Source of the DNA: Cochliopodium minus
Lineage: Eukaryota > Discosea > Himatismenida > Cochliopodiidae
NCBI GenBank assembly: GCA_024220525.1
Contig: JAMYWO010000420.1
Location: forward strand, 1 to 21,730
DNA length: 21,730 nucleotides
Direction: 5' to 3'
The position numbers and the translations under genes are program-made. Position 1 is the first letter of the stretch; each line of letters opens with the position of its first letter. Of this stretch, positions 4,126 to 21,022 are shown in pieces. The notes under the pieces were generated by a model. That model was given only the letters and a program-made list of their open reading frames with translations, was not told the origin of the DNA and ran no database searches.

Positions 4126-5631
4126 TCAGATATGGTTTTTAAATTGTATTTGTTGATTGTTTCTTTGATTGAATTTCTTTCTCTTTTTGATATGGGGCTT
4201 TGATTTCAAATGAATATTGATTTGGAATTCACCCCAAATCTTCTTTTTGCAGAATTCACAATCGAGAATCTTATCATCATACTCTGCCTTCTGATTTCTT
4301 TTGGCGATAAAATCTTGATGTGGAATGGATAGATTATTCACAAAAGAATGAACAATATCTTTGGAGATGATAGACACTTTTTGATCCCATTTATCCAGAT
4401 AAGAAGTATCAAGATAATAGATAGGGATATCTCTTGTTAGAATTCGATTTTTGATCCATAAAATTTGCTTCTTGGCATACTTGATTGTATGATGATTCAA
4501 TTTATCAATACATTCACTCAATATTTTCTTTTCAACATCAATATCTTGAACAATATTTAAATCTTTGTCATCTTTTATGTTGTTTTCATCTTTATTCTTT
4601 CTATAACGAAGAATATCTTCAAATTCTTTGAAACCAATGGATTGAAGCAATCCACCACGTGATTTATAATAGTTTTCATATCCAAATGAAATCAATCTCT
4701 CATTCAATTCGTAGATTTCATCCAATCCACCATTATCAACCATCATTTGGGTCCTATTTTTAATTCTTTCACTTAAAATTGAATTTTCACAACCCAACCA
4801 AAAAATTAGAGCATCATATTTACATTCCAAACTTTGTTTATCTATCAATTCGGATTGCTTTTTATTATTTTGTTGAAAGATTTGTATGCTTCTCAAGATT
4901 TTTCTCCTTTGATTGGGATGATATTTAAGTGACATTTCTTTATCTATCTCCTCCAATATTTTGTGCAACTCTTCATTTGAATTAGCTTTGTATTTCTCCT
5001 CCATTTCTTCATTCAATACCTCATTTTCTTTCATTTCAATTGTATTCTCCCTATCGAAAAAAATGTATTAATTATAATTCTATTTTAATCAATAGGTATA
5101 CCATAATAGTGATTCAACATAGTAAATTGTTCCTCCTTTTTTTTTTAAAATTATATTTCCAAAATTAATCTTTTTACTTTTATAAAAATCGAATATAAAA
5201 AGTTTTTGATGGATCGAATTACCCACTATAATTGGTATTTGACCTTTATCATTTATTTCCTTTATTTTAATTTTACAATATTCATTAAATTTGTTTACAT
5301 CAAACTGATCATCTTCAATAGGATCTATCATCGAGATCAAATGATGTTTTATTCCATCCATTTCTTTTTCTGTTGCTTTATTGGTGAAATTATCCAATCC
5401 CTTATAAACTTGCATGGAATCTGCACTTATAATTTCAGATTTTAATTGTTTTGCTATTTCTATTCCAATTTTCGTTTTTCCAACCGAAGTTGTTCCTATT
5501 TTTATTTAAAAAAAATTTGAATGGAAAATATAAAGTTAAAATAAATGCAAAACAAAATTTAGTCTTTCAATTCGATTAATGATACCTATTATTACTATTA
5601 ATTTTTGTTTAGGAGAAATATTTTCTTTCAT
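4126..5631 (-). CDS. TRIT1: tRNA dimethylallyltransferase (TRIT1/MOD5/MiaA family), complete, four exons
   Basis: Exons: 5631-5586, 5495-5223, 5135-5102, 5050-4126, giving 425 aa in frame. The enzyme transfers an isopentenyl group from DMAPP to N6 of A37 in tRNAs that read UNN codons (i6A37); family members act in cytosol, mitochondria and nucleus. Visible features: P-loop GTTSVGKT (residues 16-23), the DMAPP-binding region SADSMQVY (39-46), VGGTIYYVESLLW (about 105-117), which forms only after removal of an 87-nt intron, and GLLQSIGFKEF of the tRNA-binding part. Near the C-terminus is a C2H2 zinc finger, C-x2-C-x12-H-x5-H (C382, C385, H398, H404), as in MOD5 and TRIT1 but not bacterial MiaA. 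A Lys-rich tail follows. The first exon is short and ends in VIIG, the beta strand before the P-loop, so the start is secure. Confidence 0.95.
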
Positions 5632-6427: not shown

Positions 6428-7430
6428 ATGACAAGCGTAGATTTTAATATTGGTTATCTCATCGGAAGTGGAGCAGATGCAGAGTAAGAGAAATACAAAT
6501 TTTTTAAATTATACTTCCTGCAATCTGATTATGCAATCTAATTTAATTATACCCTTAGTTCCAAAAATAAAATAATAATATAAAAAAAAATTTTTTTAAT
6601 TCAAATAAAAAAATCCATTCAATAATAATCCTCAATTTCAAATTATGCGAAATATTAAAAAAATAATTAAATCAAATTAAATAAAAAGAGTAAGATTGGC
6701 ATCACTCTCAGACGGAAAACAATATGCAGTGAAGATATTGAAGATAAAAAATGATGATCAGAGAGATAGATTCAAAAGGGAGATAGAGATAACCAAATTT
6801 CTCAACCACGAGAACATAATAAAATTCTATGAAACCAAAGAGATGGATGAGGGAACCATCTATTTGTTCATGCAACATATCAAGGGACAGAATCTCGATA
6901 AACACATGAACGACCACGAAGATGGCATAGAAGAGAAGAAGGTCAAGGGATTGTTCTACCAACTCATCAATGCAGTGACATTCATCCATTCCCAAGGGAT
7001 TTACCACAGGGATATCAAATTGGAGAATATCTTGCTCGATGAAGACTCTCAGAAAATTTATCTCATTGATTTTGGCTACTGCGGCCTCTCTTCATCCAAC
7101 GGATCCACCATTTTCAGCGAACCTGTCGGATCCCCTTTGTATCTTTGCCCTGAGAAGATCAAAAGTGTTCCTTATTGTGGTCAATCCAGCGATGTTTGGT
7201 CTTTGGGTGTTTGTTTGTTCAAACTTTTGAACGGCTTCTATCCTTTTTATCCTTATGACACCATGGGCAACCAGGAGTTGGCTGAACTTATTTTGAACTC
7301 TGATGTTTACTTTAACCCCACTCTTTCTCCTCTCGCTAATGATCTCCTATCAAAGATGTTGGACAAAAATCCTCAGAACCGGTTGACTGTCCACCAAATT
7401 TTGCAACATCCTTGGTTTAACTCCAAATAA
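6428..7430 (+). CDS. Ser/Thr protein kinase, CAMK/SNF1-like, two exons
   Basis: Exons: 6428-6483 and 6689-7430, giving 265 aa, essentially a bare catalytic domain. The acceptor at 6687-6688 was chosen because it restores the Gly-loop valine: GSGADAEVRLA at residues 13-23. Catalytic residues are all present: Lys34 in YAVKIL, the helix-C Glu in FKREIEI, YHRDIKLEN with Asp127, DFG at 146-148, GSPLYLCPE of the activation segment, DVWSLGV, and the terminal HPWF typical of CAMK/SNF1 kinases. The Gly-loop lacks the third glycine (D-A-E in its place), which is tolerated in active kinases. There is no regulatory tail or calmodulin-binding segment. Substrate and pathway cannot be deduced. The TAA stop is 117 bp from the stop of the convergent TIPIN-like gene. 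Confidence 0.93.
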
Positions 7431-7547: not shown

Positions 7548-9568
7548 TTAATTTGAGATAAATATTTTTTTTGTTATGTTTTCGTACATCAAAAGTCCTT
7601 CACTTTCCATTATCTCCAGGATAGAGTTTAATTCATTTTCATTCAAATCAATAGAAGCTTTTTTCTTTACTTCCTCTTCGAAATCGGCTCTATCTATCTC
7701 ATCTTCTCTCCTTCTGTTAATCATTTCTTGAAATGTTTTCCTGCATACTTTCAAAGATTCTTCGTTTACCTCTACCTTTGGTTTTGACTCAAATTGTTTG
7801 GTTTCTTCATCCTTGCTTTTTTCTACACTATCTTGTTCATTGTCGAGATCCACCACAAGCTCACTTTCGAAATCAATGTTCATGCTTGATTCAATATTGT
7901 TGTCAAGGTTCACTACAAGTTCACTGTCAGGACTTGCTTCTATCTTTTTGTCAAGAATTGTTTCTTTTTCAAGATTGACTTCTATTTCACTGTCGAGGTT
8001 AATTTCAATTTCTTCATCAATATTTGCTTCGTCAAGGTGGAGATCTATCTCATCATCCATATCTTCTTCCAAATTTTTCTTTGTGTTGGACTTTTTCACC
8101 AACTTTTTCGGTTTTCTCTCTTCTATTGTTGATTTTGATTTCTTCTTTTTATCATCAGAGGCATTCGAAGTTTCTTTTTTTCTTTTTGAAGTTTCTCTTT
8201 TACTTTTAGTCCTCTTTTCTTTTTTCTTTTTTGGTTTCTTTTCTTTAACGGGAGATTCTTCTTCCATAATTTTTTGTTCCACTGGCTCTTCTTCTTCAGA
8301 CAAAACAGTTTCTTTGATCTTTTCTTTATCAATTTCGGATTCATCCTCAATGACCAACTTATCAGAAGGAGACAAAGGTACATCCTTATTTTCAATGTCC
8401 CCCAAAATGATGTCATCCTCTCCATCATCAAGAACGATATCATCTTCCTCCACTCTGTTGTTTATAGATTTTGAAGTCATAGTGTTGTTTTTGAAAAGTC
8501 TTCCTCCATTGTTTGGTTTTTTCTTTTTTTTTTTTTTGAAAAAAATTTGTAAGTATAAAGAAAGTATAATATAAATATGAAGAAAAAAGATCAAATATTA
8601 AAGAAATGATCATTTTCTTATGATTTGAAAAAATCTTGAAAAAGATTCTTACATTCTCCACTATATCATCTTCATAGATATCTGGTGAAGATTCTCTCAC
8701 CCTTTCTACCTCTTCTTCTTCGTCCTGGATGATTTCAGGCTCAGGATCTCTTTGCCTTTTGTTCCTGCTTTGGCGGACATTTATATCTTCGTTTTCATTC
8801 TCGTATCTATCCTCCCCTTCTTCTATTTCGAGCCTTGCCTCGTTCTTTCTCTTTCTTTCCTTTCCAAATGCATCCATGTAGAGTGTATCAGATAGTGCTT
8901 GGTTTGATCCCAATCTTTCTGCCCTTGCGATGAAATCATCTGTTGATATCTTGGGGAATACTTTCTTGCAGAACATTTCATACTGTGTTATCATTTGTAT
9001 CAAGAAATCATCCTTTTATTTCGATTGAGTATTAATAAACATAAAGTTTTTATGTAGATATACTTTAAAAATAAAAAATTATAAAGTTATTATTGTTCAT
9101 AATCAGATATATCATTCTTCCACTCAATTGGGATCTATCCATTTCATAAATAATCAAATAAATTTTTTTATAATTAGTGAAGATAATATTTGATTTGTTT
9201 ATTATGAAAGTATACAAGAAATAAAATTGTTTAATAAGAGTATCTCAAAATATATGTAAGGATATAACCTTTATAGATTATATTAAAAACTAAATATAAC
9301 GATTTATATTTGATTGTTATATTGTTTTTACTTTTCCTTTTTGATAATCAGGTATTGATTTATAAAAATTGTCGAATAAATTCAAATTCTCTTTTAACAT
9401 ATCTGAGGTTAGTTTTGGCCTTTCTCTCTTCTTTTTGATTGGAACAATTTCATTCTCAATGTTTTCCTTATCAGTTGGTGGGAGCACATTCAAGTCCATA
9501 TTGGTGTCGTCATTATCATCTTTAGAATCCTCTTCAAAAGAATAATTGTTTTCTTCATCCAATAGCAT
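7548..9568 (-). CDS. TIPIN: TIPIN/Swi3/Csm3 replication-fork protection protein with long charged tail
   Basis: Exons: 9568-9332, 9012-8653, 8522-7548, giving 523 aa, all phase 0. The Swi3 domain spans residues 50-115: RERPKLTSDML, then after the first intron VFPKISTDDFIARAERLG, matching LFPKLQFEDFIDRVEKLG of human TIPIN. TIPIN/Csm3 pairs with Timeless/Tof1 at the replisome, stabilises stalled forks and supports the S-phase checkpoint. Residues 116-199 are charged. The third exon adds about 324 residues, rich in Glu, Lys and Ser, with acidic repeats (ILDxxIEAS, VVNLDN type), and ends in a folded-looking 66-residue segment. Human TIPIN is only 301 aa. The join between exons 2 and 3 (intron 8523-8652) is in phase but uses an A-rich acceptor, so the last exon might instead be a separate gene starting at 8480. 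The Swi3 call is firm; the fusion is likely but unproven. Confidence 0.85.
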
Positions 9569-9886
9569 TTTTTATTATATTTGAATAAATATTAAACGTT
9601 CTTTATTTCTTATTTAAAAAAAAAGCGCCAAAATATATTTTGATAATTCTCCAAACATCCTTTTCAATAAGCATCCAATATATTTCATTTGTGATTAATA
9701 ATCAATAAGAATATATATTTTTTTGGATATTCTATTATAATAGAATATCTTAATATATCGAAAATCAAAATGTTCTAGATTCATCATCGAAGTGATATAG
9801 ATTAAAAATTGAATCATGTTCCCATCTACTTCCACCAATCTTTGATCCCCAAAAACTAAATTTAAATAAAAAAAAAAAATAAGAGG
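9569..9886. promoter_or_regulatory. Bidirectional promoter region, TIPIN (-) / UQCC2-like (+)
   Basis: A 318-bp spacer between two divergent ATGs. It is AT-rich, with GCGCC at about 9624-9629 as a rare GC-containing spot, and an A-rich leader (about 9868-9880) directly before the plus-strand start. The motif resembles an E2F/MBF-type core (GCGCCAAA), which would suit a replication gene, but one short match is weak evidence. Confidence 0.4.
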
Positions 9887-10515
9887 ATGAATAATTCAAA
9901 AAAACAAGTATTGGGAACATATAAATCATTGATCAAATTAGCCAGAAAATGGCCTATAGATGAAAATAAGAAAGGGCGAAACATGAAAGATTTTTTGTTT
10001 TTAAAAATTAGAGAAAATTACAGAAATAACAAAGATCAGAATGATAAGGAGATAATTGATTCATTGATAGAACATGCTAATTCTGAAATAGAATCATTGA
10101 ATTCCATATTTGAAGATTCAATGAGGAAACAAGTAAAAATATTATTTATAAAAAGATTATATATCTGAAATTGGGAAGGAATAAAAGCCGATTAATAAAT
10201 AGATTGATTATGATACGGATATGTTGTAAATAGTATATAAAACAATATCTTTCCATAATAAGTATAGCATCTCAAAGTATACTTATGAATCAAAGCAATA
10301 TATCTCCATAATAATTATTTTTTTCATATACATAGTATGGTTCTCAAAAGGCTATAGATTCTATATCTCCATTAATCATGGAACATGCTAAAAATGAAAT
10401 CAACACAAAATCCGTCCAAAAAACATCAAAAAAGAAACCAACACCAAAATTCATGAGGCCAGAGAAAGTGCCAATAGAAGAGGAAGGAGGAGAAAAAGCA
10501 CCAGTCAAAAATTAA
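9887..10515 (+). CDS. UQCC2: UQCC2-like complex III assembly factor, two exons
   Basis: Exons: 9887-10132 and 10336-10515, giving 141 aa (human UQCC2 is 126 aa). The diagnostic stretch is residues 11-33, including KLARKWPIDENKKGRN followed by MKDFLFLKIRENYR; it matches KLCEEWPVDETKRGRD with LGAYLRQRVAQAFR of human UQCC2. UQCC2 (yeast counterpart Cbp6) works with UQCC1/Cbp3 in the mitochondrial matrix to support cytochrome b synthesis and early complex III assembly. The exon 1 donor is CAA|GTAAAA; the acceptor ATACATAG|TATGG keeps the frame open to a TAA and places MRKQY where human has YKHKYP. The C-terminal third is low in complexity and Lys/Pro/Glu-rich, with no family counterpart I know. 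A short motif is repeated on both sides of the intron (see findings). Confidence 0.82.
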
Positions 10516-11305: not shown

Positions 11306-13633
11306 ATGGAAGAAATTTTCTCATGGAGGATCAAGCAGTTCAATAGTTTTAGTTTCTGGACCGAATTTCTACAATTGAACAAAAATTTTAAAGCGTATGA
11401 TAAAAAATTAATCAAAATCAAAAAAAAAAAAATATTTTAATTACCCAATTGAACCTAAATATATCACCCATTTAAATCGATTTAATATTTGATTTATGTA
11501 GAGTCAATCTTGGATTGGGCTTCCCTAATTTTCCAATACCCAAATATCTTAAAGTGGCAGCTACAGAAGCGATAAATAATGATTTGAATCAATATACAAG
11601 AGGACAAGGACATGAAAGTAAGATATAAATAAAAAAATAGTTTTTTTTTAATTAAGAAAACATAAATTTTTGTTTAACTTTTAAATAAATTTTTTTAAAC
11701 TTTTTAATAGGACTTGCTATTGCAATTGCAAAAGAATACTCTCCAATTTTTAACAAAACAATAGATCCATACAAGAATATTGTTGTGACAGTAGGAGCAG
11801 CAGAGGTAAAAAAAGAAATATTTTTTCATAAATATTTTTAAATTCTTTTAAAAATTTTGTTGTATTAACTATCAAAAAGATAAATTTTAATTCTACTGTA
11901 GTTTATTAATCTTTTTTTTTTTATTTTAAATCTATGATTTATTTTTATTCTAATTTATTTTTTTTTATTTTAAAACTTAATTTTTATTCTGTTTTATTTT
12001 ATTTTTTATTATTATTTATTTTTATTTTTACATAAAACTTTAATCAATTTTTTTTTATTTAAAGTCTTTTTGTTTTTATTTAAGAATAATTTTTTTTTGA
12101 TATTAAACTTTCAACCATTTTTTTTTTTCATTTTTTATTTAATTTTGAATATTTTAATTTTTTAATGTTTTTTTAAAATACAACTAGGCTTTACAAAACG
12201 TATTCCAAACATTACTGAACGACGGAGACGAAGTGGTGGTGTTCGAGCCCTTCTTCGATTTCTACCTCAGACAAGTCCAAATGGCACACGCAAAAGTGAT
12301 CGGAATTCCCTTCGTCCTCCCCAAAACTAAACCCATCGATGGGTTCATCAAAGCAGACGACTGGACAGTGGATTACGATTTGTTCGAAAAGTCTGTCAAC
12401 GAGAGAACCAAGATTGTTGTGTTGACTAATCCTACGAATCCTTTTGGAAAAGTTTTTACTCGTGAGGAATTGATCAAGTTGAATGAAATTTTGAAGAAGA
12501 AAAATCCCAAGACTGTCATTCTATCTGATGAAGGTAACTTTTTTAGTTTTTTTTTTTTAAATGTTTTTTTATTTTTTAGAAATTTTTATTGTAATTTTTA
12601 TTTTAATAGTCCATTTTTTTTAAATTTTCCATTTTTTTTTTGTTTTAATATCATACATATTTTAAAACTTTTTATAATTAAGTCAGTTTTTGATTTTTGG
12701 CTTTTTTTTTAAACAAAATAAAAATTTTATTTTTCTTATTTTTTTAATTTTTGGCATTTATTTTTATGTTTATTTTGAATCCATTTTTTTATTTTTTATT
12801 TTTATTTTTGATTAAATTTATTATTAATTTTTTTCTTTTGAATTTTAGTTTATGAAAGAATCTATTTTGATGATAAAGTTCATACACACATTGCCACCAT
12901 TGTCGAGGAAGAAGATAGGCTCGTCACTATTTTTTCCATTGGAAAACTTTTTAGTTGCACTGGTTGGAAAATAGGGTAAAAAAAATTTTAAACTTATTTC
13001 TTTTTTAAAATTTTTATTTATTTTCATTTTTAATTTTATTGTATTTATTTTCATTTTAAATTATTATTTTTACTTTATTGATACTTTCATCTTTTTTTTT
13101 CAATTTTTTCTTTCTTTTTAATTCCATTTTTTTATTTATTTTAAATTCATTTTCCATTTTTTTTTTTGAAATCAATTTTAATTATTTTTTAAATTTTTTT
13201 TATTTTAATTTTAATCTATTTATTTTTATATTTAAATCTTATTTTTTTTACTTTATTGATATAAAATTATAATAATTAATTTTTAATGATTTTTTTTTAT
13301 TTTATTCTTTTTAATTGCATTTTTATTTATTTTTATTTATTTTAAATTTATTTTTCATTTATTTTTTATTTTTTTTTTCAATTTTTTTTTTATTTTTTCT
13401 AAAAATTAGATTTGCTATTTCTTCAGAAAAATTAATATCCAAATTGGCCATTGCTCACCAAAACAACGTGTTCAATATGTGCACTCCTCTGCAAGAAGCA
13501 TCAGCAATAGGCTTTGAAAACAGGGAGGAGTTCGGCAAATATCTCTCCAACTTGCGCTCTGATCTCCAAACCAAACGTGACAAGCTCTCCAAAGCTTTAA
13601 GGGAATTTGGTTTCATTGTACATCTTTGTTCTG
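11306..13633 (+). CDS. KYAT1/KYAT3: Kynurenine/glutamine aminotransferase-like (fold type I), 3'-truncated
   Basis: Exons: 11306-11394, 11502-11617, 11711-11805, 12188-12533, 12849-12975, 13410-13633. They join in frame to 332 residues; family members have about 420. Visible motifs: FKAVNLGLGFPNFP, QYTRGQGHERLAIA, VTVGAAEALQNV, EPFFDFY, LTNPTNPFGKVF, SDEVYE and the PLP-lysine segment SIGKLFSCTGWKIG with Lys248 as the Schiff-base residue. The family transaminates kynurenine or glutamine with a 2-oxo acid acceptor and can have cysteine-conjugate beta-lyase side activity. The last exon ends FIVHLCSG at a donor (G|GTATTT), where homologues continue with the glycine-tyrosine-phenylalanine strand and about 90 more residues, including the substrate-carboxylate-binding Arg. 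No exon for that part exists downstream; the opposite-strand kinase begins within 65 bp. The copy is therefore broken, or the assembly is. Confidence 0.93.
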
Positions 13634-13698
13634 GTATTTTTTTTTTAATTTTTTTTATTTTTTTTATTTTTTATTTTTTATTTATAATAAAATTTTAC
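13634..13698. other. Junction of two head-on, truncated introns
   Basis: These 65 bases lie between the last donor of the plus-strand aminotransferase (GT at 13634-13635) and the last donor of the minus-strand TKL kinase (AC at 13697-13698 on the plus strand). They are T-rich on the plus strand to about 13680, like aminotransferase introns, and then switch. Neither gene has an acceptor or a final exon beyond its donor, so both introns lack a 3' end. Confidence 0.7.
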
Positions 13699-16598
13699 CT
13701 CTTCAAAGGATCTTCTTCACAACAACTCTGGACAAGTTGGATGAGTTCATTAGGAGGCTTGAAATTCTTCAAATAAGGTTCAATGAGAGAAACATCAACA
13801 CCAAAAGTGAGATCGTTCTTTTCTATGGTGAACAGAAGCCTCAGGTTCTCTCCTTCCTCCCTTGATATTATTTCTCCAAACACGATCCCCAATGAAAAAA
13901 TATCCGCCATTTCTGGGTCATATTCAGGCACATTTTCTACTTCCTAACAGAAATATTTGGAGAAATAAACCAATTTAATAAAAAATCAAAAAGAAGAAAT
14001 AATAATATTCAAAATTAATAAAATTAATAAAATTAATTTAAAAAATAATCGAAAAAATAAAAATAAAAATAAAAATAAAAAATAAAAAATAAAAAATAAA
14101 AAACAGAAAACAGAAAAATAAAAATTAATCTAAAAAATAAAAATAAAAATTTAAAATGAAAATAAAATAAAGAAAAAAATCAAATGTTAAAAATAAAAAA
14201 ATTAAATAATTAAAATAATCAAAAATTAATATAAATCAAAATATGAAATTAAAAATAAGTTGACATAATATTGAAAATCAATCAAACAAATTCTAAAATT
14301 AAAGAAATCGTAAAAATAAAATAAAAAATAAAATAAAAAATAATTTAAATAAATTATAATAAAAAATTAAAATAAAAGAAAAAATAAAAATCAAAAATTA
14401 TTTTAAAAAATCAAATAATTAAAAAAGTTAAAATTGATAAATTAATTTGAAAATTTTGAGTTACAGGAGCTTTTATAAACCAAGTACCAACAGAAGAATT
14501 CTGTTTAATGATTCCCCTCTTCTCATTGTCCATCTCATTCTCTTTTTGTCTCGCCAACTTGAAGATCTCGTGTTTCTCTTGAAGGAGGGACAAACCAAAA
14601 TCTGATATTTTCACTGTGTACATTATCCTTTCGTTGTCTCCCGCTGGGAAAATTAATATGTTGTCTCCCTAATTTATTTAAATATTAAAAATTAAAATTT
14701 AAAATTAAAATTAGAATAAAAATCATTAAAATTATAAAAATAAAATATTAAATTAAAAAAAAGTAAATATTAAAAATTAAATATCAAAAATAAAATATTA
14801 AAAATAAAAATCAGGCCTTCCCAAAATTAGTATACTAATTATCTAAAATATATCAGATTAAAAAAATTATTTAAGATTCTACTATTGCTAACGATTATTT
14901 TCGATTATTTTGTATTGAAATGGATTATTGACTAATAAAAATTAAGTATACTAAATTTCGGAAGGACTAAAATATTTTAGGCCTGATAAAAATTTTAATT
15001 GAATAAATTTTTTGATTATTGTTGTAAATAAATTCAAAAAAAAAAATTCTACAAATAATAATAAATTTAAAAAAATTAACAAAATTTTTTTTACTTTTAA
15101 ATCTCTATGAAATATTTGTTTGGAGTGCAAGTAAGTTAAACCACTGACAATCTGCTTACAAATCTCCAAACGAGTCTCCCAAGAAAGTTCCAAATCGAAT
15201 CCCTTTTTCATTCCTTGAATGAAGCTGGCGCTTTGATGGCTTTTGAGGAGATGGATTAGACTTCCTTTTGGCGCCAACTCTGTTATCATGTAGAAGTTTA
15301 GTTCTTTGTCTATGCTCACTCCCAAAAATGTCAATATGTTTGGGTGCCTTAATGATCTTTTTTTTTTGAAATTTAATAAAATAAAATAAAATAAAATAAA
15401 TTAAAAAAATAAAAAAATAAAAAAATAAAAAAATAAAAAATAAAAAAATAAAAAATAAAAAAATAAAAAATAAAAATAAAAATAAAATAATTTAAACTTT
15501 AAAAAAAAATAAAAACTTTTCAAATGAGAGATTAGAAAGAAATGAGAACAAAATAAAACAAAATAAAAAAATGAAAAATGAACAAAATAAAGAAAAGTTA
15601 ATTAAAAAATAAATAAAATTTATTTTGGTCTTAAAACTTGGAAAAAAGCTTACTGAAGGATTTCAACTTCTTTTCTTATTTCTTCAATTATTTTTTCTGA
15701 TTGTTTTCCTTTCATTAGCCCCTTAAATATTCCAATCGCTGTGAAAATTTTTTTTTAAGGAAGGATTCAGAGGAGAATGATTTAGGAAAAGAAATTCAAT
15801 TGTTAATTAATTAATTAAATAATTTAATAGAATAATGATGTAAGAAATTAATTTACCCACTGGCGCATTCAAAAAGGTTCCTATTTTTCGAGATTAATAA
15901 ATAAAAGTTATTTATTTAAAGATTATTTGAAAATATAATTTGTATGAGGAATACTGAATTCTGTTTTTTTTTCTATATGTATCAAGTTGAATTCATTTAT
16001 TGGATATATTCTTATTTTATAGTATAAAATTATTCATAGGAGAAAATATAAAATTTTATTTATATTCAATACTAGTCTATTCCAATACTAATCTTTTATA
16101 AATGGGATGAATCTTTGGATATAGGTGATTCTTTTATTTATATTCCAATAATAATTATATTCCTCCTCAATTCATTTTACCCTTCCATACTTCCTTGAAG
16201 AAGCCTTGCCCTATCTTCGACATAAGGCCTAATTCTTCGAATTTGATCGAGAAATGGGCCATTTCAACCAATTGGGAGATACTCTTGAATCTATTGGGTG
16301 ATTGGAGGGGTGATTTTGATTCGTTATTGTTATCATCTTCTTCTTTTTTAGAATTTATCGTTATTTTCAAACCTTTATGTTCACCTATTTTGTTTTTCTT
16401 CTCTTCACTATCACTCTTTGAATCTATCTTTAAATTATCCAATATATCCTCTTTATTGACATCATTCCTTTTGAATGTGATGCTCTTGTTGAATGAAAAA
16501 CTGTTATTCATGGTATCTTCATCTTCTTCATCATTCATCTCACTGCTATTCAAAAAAGCATTTGTCAAAGAATTTCTAAATGAAGACTTATTATTCAT
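13699..16598 (-). CDS. TKL-type protein kinase, six exons, 3'-truncated, Gly at the ATP-Lys position
   Basis: Exons: 16598-16181, 15880-15857 (24 nt), 15738-15654, 15356-15095, 14668-14465, 13943-13699. They join in phase to 412 residues. Residues 1-115 are polar, rich in Asn, Ser, Asp and Glu. The kinase domain follows: Gly loop KIGQGFFKEVWKG, helix-C Glu in IRKEVEIL, HRDLKGDNIL (Asp261), ISDFGLS (286-288), GTWFIKAPE and DIFSLGIVFGEII. The mix of HRDLKGDN and CW-like QSCCEEDPLKR near the end suits the tyrosine-kinase-like group. Two oddities: the beta-3 VAIK motif reads VAIG (residue 150 is Gly), and the protein stops after DPLKR at a donor, without the RPSF..I...L segment that ends this domain. 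It may be a pseudokinase, a decaying copy or an assembly break. The 138-nt intron at 15357-15653 and others are A/T simple sequence. Confidence 0.88.
14040..14460. repeat. A/T simple sequence inside kinase intron
   Basis: Most of the kinase intron at 13944-14464 is A-rich on the plus strand, with arrays of AAAAAT at about 14055-14100 and AAAATAAAAA types beyond. On the gene's sense strand this is T-rich, like every other intron in the window. No coding segment is visible. Confidence 0.75.
15361..15490. repeat. (AAAAT)n / (AAAAAAT)n tandem array in kinase intron
   Basis: An AAAAT-type array (about 15369-15400) passes into units of 6-7 bases, A(5-6)T, up to about 15490. It lies in the intron between exons 3 and 4 of the TKL-type kinase. 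Unit length drifts gradually, as expected from slippage. Confidence 0.8.
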
Positions 16599-17046: not shown

Positions 17047-18412
17047 ATGGGAAATACAAGTAATATCAAGGATATATTCAATTCAGTAGTTTCCAATAAA
17101 GTATAACTGATCAAATAAATAATTATCCAATCTTAATATTTTGCCTTTAAATCTCTTCCACCCAAAAAGCTGAAAGAAAATTCAGAAATATTGGATTTTA
17201 GGAATGATGAAATAGGAGATGATGGATTAATACATCTGACAAAATCAACAATGGAAAATACAGTTATCAAATCATTGAATTTATCAAAAAATAAAATTAC
17301 ATCAGAGGGATTAAAAGTTTTTTGCGAAACAAACAAAATAATCAACTTGAAAAACTTGGATTTATCCGAAAACAATTTTGGAGAAAAGGGGGTCATTTAT
17401 TTGACAGAGTACATGAAAAAGAACAAAACAATAAAAAATCTCAATATTTCTTTGAATGGAATAGGACACATGGGGGCTGTAAAATTCAGTGAGTGTTTGC
17501 GGAATAATAAGTAAAAAATAATCAATTTAAAAAATTTAAAAATTTGAAAATTAAAAAATTTGAAAATTATAAAAAAAAAAACTTTAAAAATTAAAAAAAA
17601 ACTTTAAAAAAATTGATTTAAAAAATCTGAAAATTTAAAATTTTTATAAAATAAAAAACTTTGAATTTAAAAACTTTTATTATAAAAATTTTTTTTTTTA
17701 GAACTTTGTTGAGACTGAATCTTTCAGGGAACAAATTTGAAATTAACACATTGGATCACATGACTAACAATTTTATCGTAAATAACACTTTGGAGTGTCT
17801 TTATCTTAGCCACAACTTGTTAGGCTTGGGAGCTTTTTGTAGCTTGTTTCTTCCTAAGAACACTTCGATTAGTGTGTTGTCCCTGAGTCATTCTCAATTA
17901 CAAGATGTAAATGATCTGTTTAAAAGTTTAGAAAACAATTCTACACTTTGTAAGCTAGATTTAAGGTTCAACTCATTAAACTACATTAATGAAGAATCAG
18001 GTTTTAAAAGCTTTTATTATTTCTTTAAAATCTTTTTTAAATCAAAATTTTTTTCAACAAGCTTTTAATTAATTTAAGTTTCTTCCATATTATTTCATAA
18101 AATTTTTTCATTTTACAAATAGTTTTATTGTTAAAAAATTAAAATAATTTTGAAGATTCTTTTTTAATTAATTCTTAAAATTTTTTTAAAAAAGTATGTA
18201 AAGTGTTGAAGAACAAGGCTTTGCATTATCTAGATTTTAGAGGGAACTTTCTTTTGAGCTACAACCCAATCAACATCAACGCCTTGCTGAGAGAAAATAA
18301 TGTGGTCCTCAAGCTCAAATATACAGCTTTGATGATTAGGAAAGTGAAGGGATCTCCATTATCAATTTTTCCGAGGAGACTTCTTTTATATATTTTGGAA
18401 TTCGTCAAATAA
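17047..18412 (+). CDS. Leucine-rich-repeat protein (RI-like LRRs), four exons
   Basis: Exons: 17047-17100, 17170-17510, 17702-18000, 18195-18412, giving 303 aa. The protein has about eight repeats of the ribonuclease-inhibitor type, roughly 28 residues each: IKSLNLSKNKITSEGL, LKNLDLSENNFGEKGV, IKNLNISLNGIGHMGA, LLRLNLSGNKF, LECLYLSHNLLGLGAF, ISVLSLSHSQL, LCKLDLRFNSL and LHYLDFRGNFL. Such solenoids bind proteins; the partner cannot be told. The start MGNTSN has Gly2 and could be N-myristoylated, although residue 6 is Asn rather than the preferred Ser/Thr. The third intron uses a weak donor, G|GTTTTA, but phase and the LRR pattern support it. The C-terminus PRRLLLYILEFVK is amphipathic and F-box-like. 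There is no signal peptide, TM segment or NACHT domain. Exact function is unknown. Confidence 0.88.
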
Positions 18413-19312: not shown

Positions 19313-20022
19313 CTATTTATCAACTTTTTAAATTTAAATATTAGTTTATTTGAATCTTAAAAGAAGAAATTTTTTCTCACTCCTTTATCCAAATCATTTG
19401 ATAAGCCATTGATATCTAAATTGGCCTTTCTTACGCATATTATTTCATCCAAATTATTTCTCTTCATTTATTTGCCCGTTTAGGTTTTTTTTTAAAATTT
19501 TATCATTTTTATGATTTTTAATAAGAAATAAGAATGGGTTAAGAAGATACCTTTTAAAGATTGAATACAAATTAAACTTTGACTCATCATTAACCTACAT
19601 CTAGTAATTCCATTAAATTCTTTTATTGTTAGATTCCTTGAAAGTTAAAGCTTATTATTGCACATCTTATTATCAATTAAGGTGAAAGCGATTTTTAATT
19701 TTTTATTTAATTGTTAATCATTTGAAAAAAATAATGAAAAAAACTAGTTTTGTAATTCGTGCAATAAAAAATCAATCCTTTCTACTTTAAAACAATTTCT
19801 ATCTTCCATAAAATTTTGATCAAAAAAAAAAATTTCAAATTCTAAAGATACAAATTGTATTCTTTGATCTCCTCGAGAATCAAATGGAAATATCATTATT
19901 GTTTTACAAATAATTTTGGTTGTGTTTTTTAATATGAAATTTTGTGAAACTAAATAAAAAAAAATGGAAGGAGAAAATTTGGTGAATGATTATAATGAAG
20001 TGGCAAACATTATTAGAAACTT
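19083..20022. other. Unresolved stretch with small minus-strand reading frames
   Basis: No confident gene. On the minus strand there is an ATG-started 50-codon frame at 19896-19744 (MIFPFDSRGDQRIQF at its start), open further upstream without a stop. A second short frame starts MKRNNLDEIICVRK near 19470. They could be exons linking the 5' and 3' parts of the coiled-coil gene, but I found no set of junctions that keeps phase throughout. A run of T in the first frame gives FFF, so chance opening is possible. Confidence 0.3.
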
Positions 20023-20023
20023 N
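20023..20023. other. Ambiguous base (N)
   Basis: The only N in the window. It falls in the last readable codons of exon 7 of the unrecognised gene, next to two near-copies of GTTGTATCTCCT (about 20026-20039 and 20045-20057). The short repeat may have caused the uncertain call. Confidence 0.95.
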
Positions 20024-21022
20024 TGTTGTTGTATCTCCTTCAAATGTTGTATCTCCTGATCTTTCTCACTAATTTGCTGAAAGAGGTTACCTTTCCTTTC
20101 TTCTGTAAGTGTTGCTTGTTTCATCTTCTCTTTTGTTCCTTGTGGAGCTTTGCGAAGGCTTGGATCATCTTTGGCCTTGAGTTTGAGCATCTCTAATATT
20201 AAAAAATAAAAAATAGGATGAAAAATTTATTGGAAAAATTTAATTCAAAACAAATGTAAAAAGAAGATTATGTAATATGAAAGAAAAAAACAAACCTTTG
20301 CTTGGAGATTCAACCTTTTTATCTATTTTTTCAACGATATCTTGTTTTCCATCTGATTGGAGAAAGCATATTAATTATTTTGTATATTTATTTTATACTC
20401 ACATCGTTTGTGATACTTATAATCAAGGCATTATCTTTGTAATTCAAAGATATTTATGTAATAATTAATTTTGAAAAAAGTTCACCATCTTTGCTTGGAG
20501 ATTCCACTATTTCTTGATTGGTGACTAATTCTTCTTGATTTATACATTTATGTAAAAAAGATTAATTATTTGTTGGTTTATATGTGAAAGAATAATTATA
20601 AAATTTGTAAATTTAACTCTTTAATTTTGTATTACCATCAAAGTCTGATGTAATTTTCTTTATTTCTTCTTGCATGCTTTCTTTTTTTAAATTTTTTTTT
20701 TATTTATTTCAATTTTGGTGGGAGATATGTATAAAAAAAAAAAAAAATTTACTTTCATGATTGTTGATAAGAACACAAATCAAAAGAGGTGCATATTTCA
20801 ATTTTCTTTTTTCCCTTCGCAAATAGGCTTTCGATGATAATTCATCTTTTCTGGAATTATTTTGGTGAGTTTAATAATTATATTTTACTTAAGATGCTAT
20901 AATTATACCCATTGATTTGATGATCACCAATATTCTATTTGATTTTATGTTCGTCATAAGATAAAAAAAAATTTAAAATTCATTTTTACTATATATTGGA
21001 GTGTCCCAATTCTATGATTCAT
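20024..21022 (-). CDS. Unrecognised charged protein, 5' seven exons
   Basis: Exons: 21022-20990, 20934-20909 (26 nt), 20850-20753, 20680-20636, 20533-20486, 20352-20296 and 20192 to about 20024. All six junctions agree in phase; the last four are phase 1. The read starts MNHRIGTLQYINIGDHQING, then LSSKAYLRREKRKLKYAP and LLICVLINNHEK, then Glu/Lys-rich segments, two copies of VESPSK, and a coiled-coil-like end with ISEKDQEIQHLKEIQQ. The repeated SPSK has the form of a CDK-type S-P-x-K site. I do not recognise the family. The start is the first ATG of the first exon found; a further upstream exon in phase (near 21100) is possible. The gene runs into an ambiguous base at 20023, and the 3' part is uncertain. 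The phase agreement across six introns is the main support. Confidence 0.55.

Follow-up and report, generated by a model that had tools for sequence, protein, structure and literature searches.

The window analyzed here is the whole of contig C415, 21,730 nucleotides of a Cochliopodium minus assembly that spans 44.65 Mb in 598 contigs. Two genes converge in it on a 65-base junction (13634-13698) flanked by facing GT donors, a kynurenine-aminotransferase-like gene on the plus strand (11306-13633) and a protein kinase gene on the minus strand (16598-13699). The 12 exons of the two genes all read as open frames with GT and AG at their borders. Other genes named by Pfam encode an IPP transferase in two frames (4126-5505, minus strand), a second protein kinase (6681-7430, plus), a Swi3-like protein (8440-9015, minus), an LYR/complex III assembly factor, UQCC2 (9866-10168, plus), and leucine-rich repeats (17137-18068, plus). 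A lone N at 20023 falls within an open minus-strand frame (19990-20226), and both of its flanks are ordinary, unlike those of the other N sites described below.

The aminotransferase gene was modeled from its exon borders, open frame, and protein matches as six exons (11306-11394, 11502-11617, 11711-11805, 12188-12533, 12849-12975, and 13410-13633) without a tail. Its product contains a fold type I domain of the kynurenine aminotransferase/glutamine transaminase K type, and mosquito KAT was its best solved relative (E 9.4e-70), followed by KAT3, yeast BNA3, and human KAT1; all of the top eight solved sequences were KATs or yeast BNA3. The match to Pfam Aminotran_1_2 (PF00155, E 2.4e-47) covers positions 4-297 of 361, while alignments end at residue 328 of 422 in human KAT1 and at residue 337 of 427 or 429 in mosquito KAT. 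The missing part, approximately 90 residues, covers the region of the substrate-binding arginine. In KAT1, Arg398 pairs with the carboxylate of the ligand through a salt bridge (PMC4926479), and the C-terminal part with this arginine was not found in the window.

The kinase gene was likewise modeled as six exons (16598-16181, 15880-15857, 15738-15654, 15356-15095, 14668-14465, and 13943-13699, minus strand) from its exon borders and open frame, together with matches to PK_Tyr_Ser-Thr and to LIMK1, its best solved relative (E 1.8e-23). The second exon (15857-15880) is a microexon of 24 bases that is required for the frame. The HRD and DFG motifs are present in the model (FHRDLKGDN and ISDFGLS), and we assigned the protein by judgement to the TKL type. 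The match to PK_Tyr_Ser-Thr (PF07714, E 5.5e-33) stops at position 248 of 258 and that to Pkinase at 251 of 263; the query carried a sequence error at the join of exons 1 and 2, which leaves the domain end unaffected. The last helix behind the DPxxR motif is thus missing from the gene, and a TAA follows. Separately, at the place where kinases usually carry the VAIK lysine, the window kinase has a glycine (VAIGIFKG, 15654-15738, minus strand), as does the paralogue most similar to it in this genome, on contig C341 (CAIGVFKG, L049). Because the glycine occurs in both, the two sequences may represent a subfamily in which the ATP-site lysine is altered.

The ends of both genes largely agree with the original prediction, in which two converging genes were cut at facing donors 65 bp apart. 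Aminotransferase exon 6 ends at 13633 with the residues GFIVHLCS plus one base, followed by a gtattt donor, and the expected loss of some 90 residues after FIVHLCSG is confirmed by the KAT1 alignment. Kinase exon 6 ends at 13699 with EEDPLK plus two bases, followed by gtaaaa, and the boundary GAAGAG/GTAAAA together with homology points to a donor at this position, as proposed. The proposed kinase shortfall of 15-25 residues may be too low, since the C341 paralogue continues for at least 134 residues beyond DPDKR in one open frame; judged by this paralogue, the window kinase may lack more than was thought. In addition, reading exon 6 onward brings an in-frame TAA (13697-13695, minus strand) directly after DPLKR.

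Since its frame enters this TAA, the kinase gene could end there, which raises the explanation that both ends are natural. The kinase would then stop after DPLKR, and a shortened aminotransferase would either read into the junction or be spliced at 13708, with a stop near 13776. Both aminotransferase readings are indeed open as far as GGLKFFK before they stop. However, such an enzyme would do without approximately 64 of the 361 domain positions and without the region of Arg398, which in KAT1 binds the ligand carboxylate (PMC4926479), and the C341 kinase paralogue runs past the place where the window kinase would stop. We therefore regard natural ends for both genes as improbable.

The junction itself consists almost entirely of A and T. 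Inside it lies an A/T-only run of 63 bases (13635-13697), which ranks fourth in length among such runs in the window, so the description of the site as AT-only sequence applies to 63 of its 65 bases. Positions 13634-13683 are T-rich (AT skew -0.71), like three of the five aminotransferase introns (+0.18, -0.02, -0.31, -0.44, and -0.43 for introns 1-5), whereas four of the five kinase introns gave +0.45, +0.18, +0.45, and +0.12 with borders slightly off the final model. The proposed flip in skew at about 13,680-13,697 depends on the last 15 bases (13684-13698; 8 A and 6 T), which are too few for placing it. Part of the junction (13660-13683, plus strand) is a 24-mer belonging to a (TTTTTTA)n array; elsewhere in the window this 24-mer occurs at the left end of the contig (43-94) and, in inverted orientation, in the kinase intron adjoining exon 6 (14073-14103, minus strand, with starts at 14073 and 14080). 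Exact matches between the junction and other retrieved loci did not exceed 28 bases. The join contains no N and is short enough to be spanned by one read.

Neither missing tail was found elsewhere in the window, in line with the original prediction. A profile built from four aminotransferase tails was run against 1107 six-frame segments of the window (at least 12 amino acids each) and gave a best E of 0.19. Searching the window by tblastn with the tails of the C341 kinase and of a second aminotransferase gene on contig C111 yielded no convincing match apart from the known kinase exon, which was the best match of the C341 tail (E 0.042, the others being weak), and the kinase motif RP[ST][FYAVIM] was absent from all six frames. 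These whole-window searches also found no tail nested in an intron of the other gene or lying past a neighboring gene. One plus-strand frame over the kinase exon, IFFTTTLDKLDEFIRRLEIL (approximately 13710-13770), faintly resembles an aminotransferase end; we rejected it as an antisense effect. This frame is out of phase with the aminotransferase donor, which leaves one base, and a splice at 13708 yields another frame; the segment was also not among the best 21 matches of the four-tail profile search.

The search was extended to the genome, where the original prediction had proposed looking for tail exons that lack their 5' parts. Three aminotransferase tail queries (human KAT3, mosquito KAT, and the C111 gene) matched only C111, so that no separate aminotransferase tail was recovered from the readable assembly. 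The C111 locus (L045, 107357-109221) is a second kynurenine-aminotransferase-like gene, complete with tail exons and with introns at other places, and is 46% identical to the window gene over 46 residues in the best piece. The motifs GYF, IPPSxFY, and RFCF occur in the C111 tail and in other aminotransferase tails. As the KAT3 query found the C111 tail at 37% identity, an ordinary tail should have shown up if present in one piece, although a tail divided into very short exons, or one outside the readable sequence, could be missed by these queries. A Pfam family search of the genome gave 11 matches, including an aminotransferase on C334 that is more distant (28% identical to the window gene) and spans domain positions 16-361. 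Judging by these sequences, other aminotransferase tails are present in the genome and none appears to resemble the missing tail. For the kinase, the tail is too short for good searching, and the single genome query used for it, the C341 tail, returned C341 itself and one chance match, giving no sign of the proposed orphan kinase exon. That match, on C259 (E 0.06), was rejected as an orphan tail, as it is antisense to a gene that by eye resembles a DHHC palmitoyltransferase.

Intact donors that face A/T-only DNA, behind which the searches located no tail exon, would also be expected of split genes, whose tails would be encoded in unseen parts of the genome and trans-spliced from two donors sharing one A/T-only element. 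Pieces below approximately 10 kb are probably missing from this assembly, and the searches covered its readable part, which makes unseen tails possible. In Giardia, Hsp90 is reported to be encoded by a split gene that is joined by trans-splicing (PMC8494341), and the window genes resemble it in having a 5' part that ends in a donor and whose tail was not located downstream. They differ from it in that the second part was not found and that two converging genes are hit at one place. A separate 3' part with its own acceptor was not recovered for the aminotransferase in the searched assembly by the three tail queries, nor for the kinase, for which the C341 tail was the sole query. Moreover, both genes otherwise have ordinary cis introns, and two unrelated genes would need to have been split at the same 65 bases. 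Trans-splicing of split genes is thus highly improbable here.

A single lost segment that joined two introns of converging genes is the simplest reading of the locus, given that both edges resemble the donors used by the two genes at their other introns and that the tails were not found in the window nor, for the aminotransferase, elsewhere in the readable assembly. The join inside two introns that had been proposed is thus retained, with the assembly evidence leaning toward an artefact rather than settling between a real and an assembly-made event. An inversion, which had also been suggested, is unneeded because one lost segment suffices, and an inverted remnant was not found in the window. 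Both genes may have been disabled, as the original prediction had it.

We propose that 13634-13698 is a false or collapsed assembly join, a reading that we hold to be probable but by no means secure. In the real chromosome, the T-rich aminotransferase intron would lead to the tail exon or exons of that gene, past which would lie the tail of the converging kinase, followed by a kinase intron rich in A on the plus strand. The A/T-only arrays of the two introns would have detached the middle piece during assembly, leaving it absent from the assembly, and the two flanks would then have been bridged at 13634-13698. If so, the join would be absent from the actual DNA and both tails would exist. Loss by assembly is favored because the junction 24-mer also occurs at contig ends, N breaks often adjoin A/T arrays, and no contig shorter than 10,038 bases was seen.

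Of 16 readable contig ends, out of 20 from ten contigs that included C341 and C111 owing to their earlier matches, 4 carry the 24-mer in their terminal 100 bases, and 5 of the 16 had five or fewer G+C in those bases. For comparison, 39 of 2455 windows had at most 5 G+C per 100 in a 25-kb sample of five 5-kb pieces, and 7 separate 24-mer arrays were present in 65,221 bases of this sample and two contigs. Among eight distinct single-N sites in the scanned loci, two of them (L007 and L008) from loci chosen for their likeness to the junction, seven have a side with 0-2 G+C in 40 bases and three are no more than 80 bases away from the 24-mer; one connects an A-array to a T-array. The shortest contigs seen were 10,038 bases (C598, the last number) and 10,089 bases. 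As none smaller was seen, smaller pieces are probably not in the assembly, which could therefore lack a small contig from the middle of this locus. Contig rank was also considered as a mark of lost gap sequence, which would make C415 approximately 7 kb short: in C404-C426, 13 of the 23 contigs are in strict size order, ten, including C415, are shorter than the order implies, and none is longer. We rejected this measure, since C418 is short without an N and C413 is in order with two.

Several observations weaken the case for assembly loss. The 24-mer has 10,565 copies in the 44.65 Mb, 5364 of them forward and 5201 reverse; a control made by reading the pattern backwards was as common, being almost the same repeat. 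Most copies, those in the neighboring kinase intron among them, were therefore assembled through, which makes the 24-mer at the junction weak evidence by itself. Likewise, C413 has ten A/T runs of at least 63 bases and yet only two N. The absence of an N from the join, the possibility of spanning it by one read, the choice of two of the eight N sites for junction likeness, and the lack of a longer junction match in the other retrieved loci point in the same direction.

The next most likely reading is a real deletion, in which a segment with both tails and the spacer between them would have been lost recently from between two A/T-rich introns. The join is continuous, both breakpoints would be intronic in A/T-only DNA with repeats, and the C111 gene has its tail, so that this second aminotransferase gene may have eased the loss. 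On the other hand, many assembly breaks occur at similar A/T DNA, and none of the 12 exons shows decay. With all exons intact, neither gene has decayed, and a real loss would have to be recent. This lack of decay fits assembly loss and a recent deletion alike, and a deletion explains the sequence equally well. On balance, we consider loss by assembly more likely than loss from the chromosome, and view the deletion as possible but rather doubtful.

Either outcome is ordinary and would be of little surprise to a specialist. If the deletion is real, two genes were truncated by one recent event, and another aminotransferase gene remained. If the loss arose in assembly, gene ends beside A/T arrays in this genome would be unreliable, and claims of gene loss based on them would need checking. 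One deletion can truncate two converging genes, and the window resembles such cases in that a single event would take both 3' ends; it differs in that the loss is seen in assembled sequence, and its presence in DNA would have to be deduced from it. Assembly gaps and false joins occur at low-complexity A/T arrays; a literature search on exons lost beside A/T-rich gaps returned no paper. Although the join in the window is unmarked by N and known from assembled sequence alone, it shares with such gaps a break in A/T-only sequence, the loss of unique sequence, and intact flanks.
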